From Halieaceae bacterium (lineage in GTDB: Bacteria > Pseudomonadota > Gammaproteobacteria > Pseudomonadales > Halieaceae): a stretch of DNA of 33,204 bases. The notes beneath the pieces are model-generated. The model saw only the letters and a list, made by a program, of their open reading frames with translations. It was not told the origin of the DNA and searched no databases. Each line of letters opens with the position of its first letter. The stretch's first letter is position 1. A program made the translations under genes and the position numbers. Positions 4,233-10,540 of this stretch are shown one piece after another. The DNA lies in assembly GCA_028277365.1 (NCBI GenBank), contig JANQGK010000154.1:1-33204 (forward strand), read 5' to 3'.

Positions 4233-4424
4233 ATGCTAATTCTCACCCGCAGAATCGGGGAAACGCTCATGGTGGGCGATAACGTTACCGTCACAGTGCT
4301 GGGGGTGAAGGGGAATCAGGTACGGCTCGGGGTCAATGCCCCCAAAGACGTGGCCGTTCACCGCGAAGAGATCTACAACCGCATCCAGCACGAAGAAAAG
4401 AAGCCCGCTGATTCCAAGGAGTAG
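4233..4424 (+). CDS. csrA: carbon storage regulator CsrA
   Basis: [48 protein letters not shown]; upstream AGGAG ribosome-binding site. Confidence 0.99.
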
Positions 4425-4526: not shown

Positions 4527-4617
4527 GGAGAAGTGGCCGAGTGGTCGAAGGCGCTCCCCTGCTAAGGGAGTATACGTTAATAGCGTATCGAGGGTTCGAA
4601 TCCCTCCTTCTCCGCCA
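4527..4617 (+). tRNA. tRNA-Ser (GCT anticodon)
   Basis: GGAGAAGTGGCCGAGTGG...CTCCC-CTGCTAA-GGGAG...long variable arm...GGGTTCGAATCCCTCCTTCTCCGCCA; encoded CCA. Confidence 0.97.
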
Positions 4618-4620
4618 GTT

Positions 4621-4663
4621 AAACCAAGAAGCCCCCGCCCGAAAGGCGGGGGCTTCTTGGTTT
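4621..4663 (+). terminator. 19-bp perfect stem-loop directly after tRNA-Ser
   Basis: AAACCAAGAAGCCCCCGCC-CGAAA-GGCGGGGGCTTCTTGGTTT; flanking TT/AA extends pairing. Confidence 0.8.
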
Positions 4664-4671
4664 AAAAGGGG

Positions 4672-4698
4672 GGAGAAGGCGGATTTGATTCGAACCCT
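4672..4698 (-). repeat. inverted partial copy of the tRNA-Ser 3' end (T-arm plus acceptor strand)
   Basis: GGAGAAGG-CGGATTT-GATTCGAACCCT versus the reverse complement of the tRNA 3' end, TGGCGGAGAAGGAGGGATTCGAACCCT. Confidence 0.75.
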
Positions 4699-4699
4699 T

Positions 4700-4813
4700 G
4701 TTCGACAAAACGCGACCACAGGAGCGTTTTGGACGCCCGCAGCGCGCTCGCGCGCGAGGACGCCCCGAAGGGGTGATTGCAGCCCTTAGGCTGCAATCAT
4801 CAATCCCTCCTTC
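4700..4813 (+). other. tRNA-associated structured element, copy A, ending in a copy of the tRNA-Ser 3' sequence (AATCCCTCCTTC)
   Basis: Hairpins CAAAACGC/GCGTTTTG, GCGCG/CGCGC, CCCC/GGGG and TGATTGCAGCC/GGCTGCAATCA; homologous to copy B at 10166-10277. Confidence 0.8.
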
Positions 4814-4945
4814 AGGCGCCCCAGCGGGGCGCCCGCTACCGGACGAAAAATCACACTCTCCTTCATACGCCCCCAGCGGGGCGCCCGCTACCAGACGAAG
4901 AACCACCCCCTCCATCAGCCACCCCAAAGATCACTCTCTCACCAG
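4807..4945 (+). repeat. degenerate ~51-bp tandem repeat (about 2.5 copies), each starting CTCCTTC/CTCCATC
   Basis: Units begin near 4807, 4858 and 4910; the first two share CGCCCCnAGCGGGGCGCCCGCTACCnGACGAA. Confidence 0.7.
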
Positions 4946-9998: not shown

Positions 9999-10075
9999 GC
10001 GCCTGTAGCTCAGCTGGATAGAGTACCTGGCTACGAACGAGGCGGTCGCACGTTCGAATCGTGCCAGGCGCGCCA
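9999..10075 (+). tRNA. tRNA-Arg (ACG anticodon)
   Basis: GCGCCTG TA GCTC AGCTGGATA GAGT A CCTGG CTACGAA CGAGG CGGTC GCACG TTCGAAT CGTGC CAGGCGC GCCA; 77 nt. Confidence 0.95.
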
Positions 10076-10076
10076 T

Positions 10077-10120
10077 ATAAAAGAAAAGGCCCCCTCCTCG
10101 GAGGGGGCCTTTTCTTTTAT
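10077..10120 (+). terminator. 20-bp perfect stem-loop directly after tRNA-Arg
   Basis: ATAAAAGAAAAGGCCCCCTC-CTCG-GAGGGGGCCTTTTCTTTTAT. Confidence 0.85.
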
Positions 10121-10139
10121 GGGGTGTCCTCCGCGAGTG

Positions 10140-10168
10140 AACGTCGCGAAGCGACGCTTCGCAACGTT
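10140..10168 (+). repeat. inverted repeat preceding element copy B
   Basis: AACGT-C-GCGAAGC-GAC-GCTTCGC-A-ACGTT, one internal mismatch. Confidence 0.6.
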
Positions 10169-10277
10169 CGACAAACTGCGACGAATAGGAGCAGTTTGGA
10201 CGCCCGCAGCGCCAAAGGCGCGAGGACGCCCGGAGGGTCAGAACAGCCCAAAGGCTGTTCTGATCAATCGTGCCAGT
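10166..10277 (+). other. tRNA-associated structured element, copy B, ending in a copy of the tRNA-Arg 3' sequence (AATCGTGCCAG)
   Basis: Hairpins CAAACTGC/GCAGTTTG, GCGCC/GGCGC, CCC/GGG and TCAGAACAGCC/GGCTGTTCTGA; conserved GGACGCCCGCAGCGC...GCGCGAGGACGCCC and terminal ATCAATC shared with copy A. Confidence 0.8.
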
Positions 10278-10439
10278 CAACTCGGTCCCCAATCGTGCCA
10301 GTCAACTCGGTCCCCAATCGTGCCAGGCAACTCGGTCCCCAATCGTGCCAGGCAACTCTGCCCCCAATCGTGCCAGGCAACTCTGCCCCCAATCGTGCCA
10401 GGCAACTCGGTCTCCAATCGTGCCAGGCAACTCGACCCC
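10265..10439 (+). repeat. 7 x 25-bp tandem repeat carrying the tRNA-Arg 3'-end fragment
   Basis: Unit CAATCGTGCCAGGCAACTCGGTCCC; starts at 10265, 10290, 10315, 10340, 10365, 10390 and 10415; AATCGTGCCAGGC is identical to the tRNA-Arg T-arm/acceptor 3' strand. Confidence 0.95.
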
Positions 10440-10540
10440 CACCTTGCTCGGCAATTTCGAGCGCCCCATAATCGAGTGCGCGCGGTTTCAACGCTTTCTA
10501 ACCATCCTCTTACTACTATCAACACGCTGCGAGACAGCTC

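Follow-up and report, generated by a model that had tools for sequence, protein, structure and literature searches.

A structured, non-coding element of about 100 nt occurs twice in the window (the whole stretch of DNA analysed here, 33,204 nt of contig JANQGK010000154.1 from a Halieaceae bacterium), and we put at about 93% the probability that it is a divergent tRNA-linked repeat (TLR), of the family that comprises the E. coli tyrT/RtT repeats and the segment between the rrnB terminators T1 and T2. The observation made in the initial annotation, of one element behind two different tRNA genes, is real, and both copies are present; what it concerns is not new but a divergent representative of an already known family, so the suggestion that the element might be undescribed does not stand. 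With ends set by covariance model, copy A spans 4700-4806 and copy B 10166-10270, starting 83 nt and 91 nt, respectively, past the host tRNA. The extent first proposed for copy A, 4700-4813, was nearly right, the model end being 4806 and 4802-4813 being flank derived from tRNA-Ser. The element consists of GTTCGA, hairpin S1, the block GACGCCCGCAG, hairpin S2, GAGGACGCCC leading into hairpin S2b (CCC-GNA-GGG), hairpin S3, and TCA followed by AATC.

Two covariance models were used. R1 was built from ten copies, and the first row of its alignment (A2), window copy A, was edited such that one S2b C-G pair was removed. R2 was built from 20 copies from other gammaproteobacterial genomes, with window copy A and E. 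coli rrnB and tyrT left out; its automatic structure lacks S2, and the E-values of both models are rough. The parts of the two loci are as follows.

4527..4617, + strand: tRNA-Ser(GCT), host gene of copy A (ARAGORN, Rfam RF00005)
4618..4664, + strand: palindromic terminator-like hairpin in the T1 position, core of a 44-nt inverted repeat
4665..4699, + strand: inverted copy of the tRNA-Ser 3' end/T-arm (repeat search; own-tRNA test)
4700..4806, + strand: TLR element copy A, GTTCGA ... AATCC (R1 107.1 bits, with an edited form of copy A in the R1 training set; R2 40.4 bits, E=4.7e-9)
4700..4705, + strand: GTTCGA, direct copy of the T-loop left flank (sequence; invariant in alignment A2)
4706..4731, + strand: copy A hairpin S1, CAAAACGC / GCGTTTTG, loop GACCACAGGA (double changes in 6/8 pairs)
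4742..4755, + strand: copy A hairpin S2, GCGCGC-TC-GCGCGC (fold, covariation)
4763..4773, + strand: copy A hairpin S2b, CCCC-GAA-GGGG, with a GNA triloop (GNA census)
4774..4799, + strand: copy A hairpin S3, TGATTGCAGCC / GGCTGCAATCA (double changes in 9/11 pairs)
4802..4813, + strand: AATCCCTCCTTC, direct copy of 4599-4610, the tRNA-Ser T-arm 3' half and start of the acceptor strand (100%, repeat search)
9999..10075, + strand: tRNA-Arg(ACG), host gene of copy B (ARAGORN)
10077..10120, + strand: perfect 21-bp terminator palindrome in the T1 position (repeat search)
10121..10165, + strand: stretch in the inverted-copy position, including hairpin S0 (10139-10153 / 10155-10169, 93%; repeat search)
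10166..10270, + strand: TLR element copy B (R1 110.9 bits; R2 38.3 bits, E=1.7e-8)
10172..10198, + strand: copy B hairpin S1, CAAACTGC / GCAGTTTG (fold, covariation)
10209..10221, + strand: copy B hairpin S2, GCGCC-AAA-GGCGC (fold)
10229..10237, + strand: copy B hairpin S2b, CCC-GGA-GGG (sequence; GNA census)
10238..10263, + strand: copy B hairpin S3, TCAGAACAGCC / GGCTGTTCTGA (repeat search, covariation)
10266..10276, + strand: AATCGTGCCAG, direct copy of the tRNA-Arg T-arm 3' half (repeat search)

At the copy A locus, a repeat search found an inverted repeat (4596-4639 / 4645-4688, 77% complementary, 5 nt between the arms) that reaches the tRNA T-loop, and 4687-4698 is the exact 12-nt reverse complement of 4591-4602, an inversion of the tRNA-Ser T-arm; at the copy B locus, the likeness of 10121-10165 to an inverted tRNA-Arg 3' end is weak, as judged by eye. 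Tandem repeats stand directly after both copies: a 52-bp repeat of 2.4 copies at 4805-4926, starting in the tRNA-Ser-derived CCCTCCTTC, and seven 25-bp repeats (CAATCGTGCCAGGCAACTCGGTCCC) at 10265-10441, each unit of which opens with the tRNA-Arg T-arm 3' half. A csrA ORF (63 aa, 4233-4424) lies immediately upstream of tRNA-Ser and copy A.

Both copies fold well, the fold energy of each lying 5.4-5.8 s.d. under that of dinucleotide shuffles, and the compensatory changes that the initial annotation quoted for three stems were borne out on inspection. Across ten sequences, 17 of 26 pairs carry double changes (0/500 shuffles), and the covariation score is 0.55, compared with 0.02-0.07 for slid controls. 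Covariation in a larger alignment, a condition that had been set beforehand, is present among 87 distinct rows: this alignment, which was fitted to the structure, contains 522 double-change cells (142 in shuffles), is 95.6% paired, and scores 0.574, where shuffles reach 0.138 and slid controls about 0.05-0.07. These results support a structured, covarying, tRNA-linked element rather than a protein, and we agree that the overlapping ORFs look spurious. Read off the sequence, the S1 loop of the window copies (GC-GA-C-CANA-G-GA-GC) could form a tandem GA motif, such as has been inferred in RtT by covariation (PMC7657543).

On one side of the element stands the terminator of a stable-RNA gene, on the other a partial duplicate of that gene's 3' end, and the insertion point is precisely the T-loop position of this duplicate (GTTCGA / element / AATC...). 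The right flank of the element directly repeats the 3' portion of the same tRNA, beginning exactly where the T-loop would continue; this repeat is 12 nt long for copy A and 11 nt for copy B, shorter than the E. coli definition of a TLR, and in 36% of 107 related loci it extends over the full length to CCA, as it does in the same genome at L001. The tRNA link had been recognised correctly at the outset; overlooked were the duplicated end of the tRNA, the T-loop as the place of insertion, and the T-arm copy in inverted orientation. A same-strand tRNA is found upstream of 107 of the 149 collected copies, at a distance that is mostly 65-91 nt; in 60% of cases the right flank shares 8 nt or more with this tRNA, compared with 0.05% for tRNAs of other amino acids; the inverted stretch, too, best matches the own tRNA (82 loci, p=1e-27). 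Copies lacking an upstream tRNA lie mostly at contig ends, behind tRNA fragments or within a tRNA copy. A tRNA-like closing stem, in which the right 3' copy pairs with the inverted copy, fits tyrT and is included in the RF00391 structure; as a general feature of the RNA it was rejected, being eroded in many loci.

Further copies were expected beforehand in the genome and in relatives, and were found in the same genome and in other genera. The genome holds at least seven more, nearly all shown to be behind tRNA genes: tRNA-Arg(TCT), tRNA-Lys (two in tandem) and tRNA-Val (three), plus one on contig C160. R1 matches 78 of 140 genomes of the family, while in the class R2 (E<=1e-4) matches 176 genomes out of 369, representing 135 of 272 sampled genera, in support of the earlier surmise that the element is widespread in gammaproteobacteria; since this survey limited scoring to 12 candidates per genome, it gives minimum copy numbers. 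A phylum-wide sample gave R2 matches in 82 of 299 genomes, including families outside the class, only some of the non-gammaproteobacterial matches having been inspected. Exact-pattern scanning of all genomes returned mostly chance matches in coding DNA. The Rfam check proposed in the initial annotation found no family matching the element in the window directly: RF00391 (gathering threshold 45 bits) finds nothing in the window, even with E<=5 allowed, and nothing in its genome. At the same time, RF00391 matches 33 of 185 sampled gammaproteobacterial genomes, and in several genomes it and R1 fall on the same places.

The link to E. coli comes from R2, which, trained elsewhere, finds rrnB (58.1 bits, E=9e-14), tyrT (31 bits, E=1.6e-6) and both window copies (40.4 and 38.3 bits), and therefore identifies the element as a divergent member of the known family. 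TLRs were described by Egan and Landy 1978 and Rudd 1999 (reviewed in PMC8144298). According to that review K-12 has 22 of them in ten loci, the last 18-19 bp being a repeat of the upstream gene's 3' end (tRNA or rRNA), rRNA-linked TLRs are conserved within Enterobacteriales, and no function is known. With these the element has in common a stable-RNA gene directly upstream, a repeat of that gene's 3' end, and homology in sequence and structure.

At E. coli tyrT (178-bp repeats; RttR/RtT; RF00391), the repeat likewise lies behind a tRNA, with GTTCGA on its left and the tRNA 3' end on its right, a GATGAGAA-type inverted T-arm upstream, the hairpins S1, S2, CCC-GNA-GGG and S3, and tandem copies whose number varies among strains; the right flank is the tRNA-Tyr 3' end to CCA, and the RttR 3' terminus falls exactly at this tRNA-derived CCA. 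The tyrT locus differs in having shorter stems and no strong terminator palindrome between tyrV and the repeat; moreover, the window copies are below the reach of RF00391, and R1 scores tyrT unconvincingly. One R2 match in another genome (L345) stands behind a 5S rRNA gene and is followed by a copy of the 5S 3' end, and E. coli rrnB was examined for this reason. In K-12 the rrnB order is 5S 3' end, T1, inverted copy (35-nt arms, 80%, fused to T1), GAGTAGGA (a copy of the left flank GAGTAGGGA), element, AACTGCCAGGCATCAAAT copy, T2. The T1-T2 segments of rrnB, rrnA and rrnD (TLRs rrA, rrB and rrF) have the same order of parts as the window loci, and that of rrnB is, of the compared sequences, the closest to the gamma-wide model. 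They differ in that the host gene is 5S rRNA, whose 3' end is duplicated in place of a tRNA 3' end, and in that they are experimentally established as small RNAs (RrA/B/F) binding CsrA and Hfq (PMC8144298). REP/BIME elements, which are associated with RAYT transposases, are also short extragenic hairpins with many copies per genome in some species, whereas the TLR is larger, has four hairpins and is tied to RNA gene 3' ends, and RAYT is absent from many of its carriers.

As to function, we give even odds to the explanation we favour, that this divergent TLR is expressed as a structured RNA by terminator read-through, with CsrA (together with Hfq) as its best candidate partner. RNA polymerase would read through the first terminator and so produce a small structured RNA, the level of which would track tRNA/rRNA transcription and which would be trimmed like the RNA upstream; its GGA-bearing loops make CsrA (with Hfq) the likeliest candidate, by analogy with E. 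coli RrB. RrA/B/F arise by read-through of T1, which is 87% efficient, are processed and bind Hfq and CsrA, binding by the rRNA-linked RrB having been shown in vitro (PMC8144298), and RtT RNAs gave Northern signals in Actinobacillus (PMC4986893). GGA is present in the S1 or S3 loop in 58/106 cases in Halieaceae (22.6 expected from shuffled loops) and 24/42 in other genomes (12.9 expected), although the enrichment is partly one shared loop motif and hence not independent evidence. We counted against read-through that T1 is a strong palindrome in the window. In E. coli, the CsrA-like binding scores of tRNA-linked TLRs are <0.01, deleting rrA/B/F has modest consequences, and a 1991 claim of an RtT phenotype was withdrawn (all as stated in PMC8144298); many strains are without the rrnB copy, which is therefore dispensable.

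Rather less probable, in our estimate, is that the TLR is mainly a small insertion element, whose core (C...GTCA) enters GA/A sites, chiefly in stable-RNA gene loops, and is retained wherever partial duplication has kept one copy of the gene intact. At L168 the core splits one anticodon loop (TCTCGA / core / AAAACCG) adjoining an intact tRNA-Ser(CGA), and at L160 it lies inverted in the T-loop of a tRNA-Lys copy beside the intact gene. Only these two loci were counted, because the other T-loop cases can arise by deletion between two GTTCGA repeats; L123, L145, L158, L163 and L189, with T-loop insertions and an intact tRNA downstream, were accordingly rejected as proof of insertion. In genome G282 the core also sits in the middle of a dispersed ~310-bp MITE that has 23-bp terminal inverted repeats (CTAGCCCGGATATTGCACCAAGG), as seen at seven inspected places (L326-L332), although these copies were possibly moved by the MITE alone, and outside the class it is borne by dispersed near-identical repeats with no tRNA nearby (L333-L337 in G535, L338-L340 in G585). 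Very similar cores, with identity up to 0.91, occur at different tRNAs of different genera; against mobility, copies of the same genome are only slightly more alike than unrelated ones (0.725 vs 0.682), and copies at the same tRNA in sister species look inherited. A precise 168-bp unit is present or absent at rrnB among E. coli strains: 31 of an evenly spaced list of 60 records give the element-free type of match, and the B95 allele equals the K-12 flanks joined at the insertion point, identical over 135 bp. Deletion between 18-bp direct repeats would explain this difference equally well. No transposase or integrase travels with the element, and Y1/RAYT transposases (PF01797) are absent from many element-rich genomes; the element is found in 23 of 33 genomes with RAYT and 55 of 107 without, and a RAYT/Y1 mobiliser is not required, none being found in the copy-rich G001, G003, G058, G063 and G015 (one is present in G002 and in the genome of the window). 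Transport by a phage or virus was rejected as well: among 15 pattern matches in viral contigs, L251 is the one clear element, and L252 is a partial one at the end of its contig. In the window's genus, no clean empty site was obtained at the tRNA-Arg(TCT) locus, the flanking gene of which was not found in three sister genomes; in another Halieaceae genus element-free tRNA-Ser loci exist, which may be decayed. An extension of the insertion reading, equally tentative, would make TLRs one ancient insertion family at GA/A sites, gammaproteobacteria-wide and wider still in the phylum sample, doubling terminators and supplying growth-rate-coupled small RNAs; if so, the rrnB T1-T2 cassette of countless plasmids would be one TLR insertion, formed through a partial duplication that includes an inverted arm.

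The inverted copy beside the terminator suggests that a template switch took part in forming the loci: the replicating polymerase would pass over the element, turn back at the terminator, synthesise an inverted copy of the RNA gene's 3' end, and then come back to copy the element. This one step explains the order of intact gene, terminator, inverted copy, left flank, element and right copy, at tRNAs as well as at rrnB, and also the tandem arrays of ~160-215-bp units. That the loci are nothing but by-products of such switching at the terminator palindrome, with the structure kept for promoting these events and not for its product, seems unlikely to us, as it leaves unexplained the first arrival of the element at a new gene and fails to explain stems that are 98% Watson-Crick with many compensatory changes. 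Still further down we place a single-stranded-DNA element like REP/RAYT or integron attC, recognised by a recombinase as folded DNA, which we regard as very improbable. The S2b triloop is GNA, closed as C(GNA)G, in 124 of the 136 unique copies with a CCC(NNN)GGG hairpin; such triloops suit DNA hairpins, but occur in RNA too. G.T is rarer in the element's stems than in tRNA stems (0.9% vs 2.7%), and A.C less rare (0.4%, 12 against 0). On the other side, RAYT is not required, and G.T outnumbers A.C in S1 and S3 (27 to 6), which favours the tRNA-sense strand. Compensatory changes were also considered as a sign of symmetric mutation at the DNA level, two-sided changes outnumbering one-sided ones 83:14 (at 85-93% identity); this argument was dropped because the ratio is no different in tRNA stems (159:32).

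E. coli TLRs were first reported almost 50 years ago (1978), with function and origin still not agreed; new here are the breadth of the family, the joint model of tRNA- and rRNA-linked repeats, the inverted-copy architecture and the atypical insertion sites. Since one model joins both kinds across about half of the sampled gammaproteobacterial genera, comparative tests become possible, and E. coli strains with and without the rrnB copy are natural matched alleles. The rrnB T1-T2 cassette is among the terminators most used in vectors (PMC8144298), and a cargo small RNA there matters in practice because of this heavy use. The presence or absence of the rrnB unit is also covered by loci L347, L348 and L349, besides L346 (250-442). 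Four further TLRs (L130, L133, L207 and L218) come with tRNA-Ser 3' fragments missing the 5' part of the tRNA, and their flanks resemble the attachment-site arms of integrated islands.
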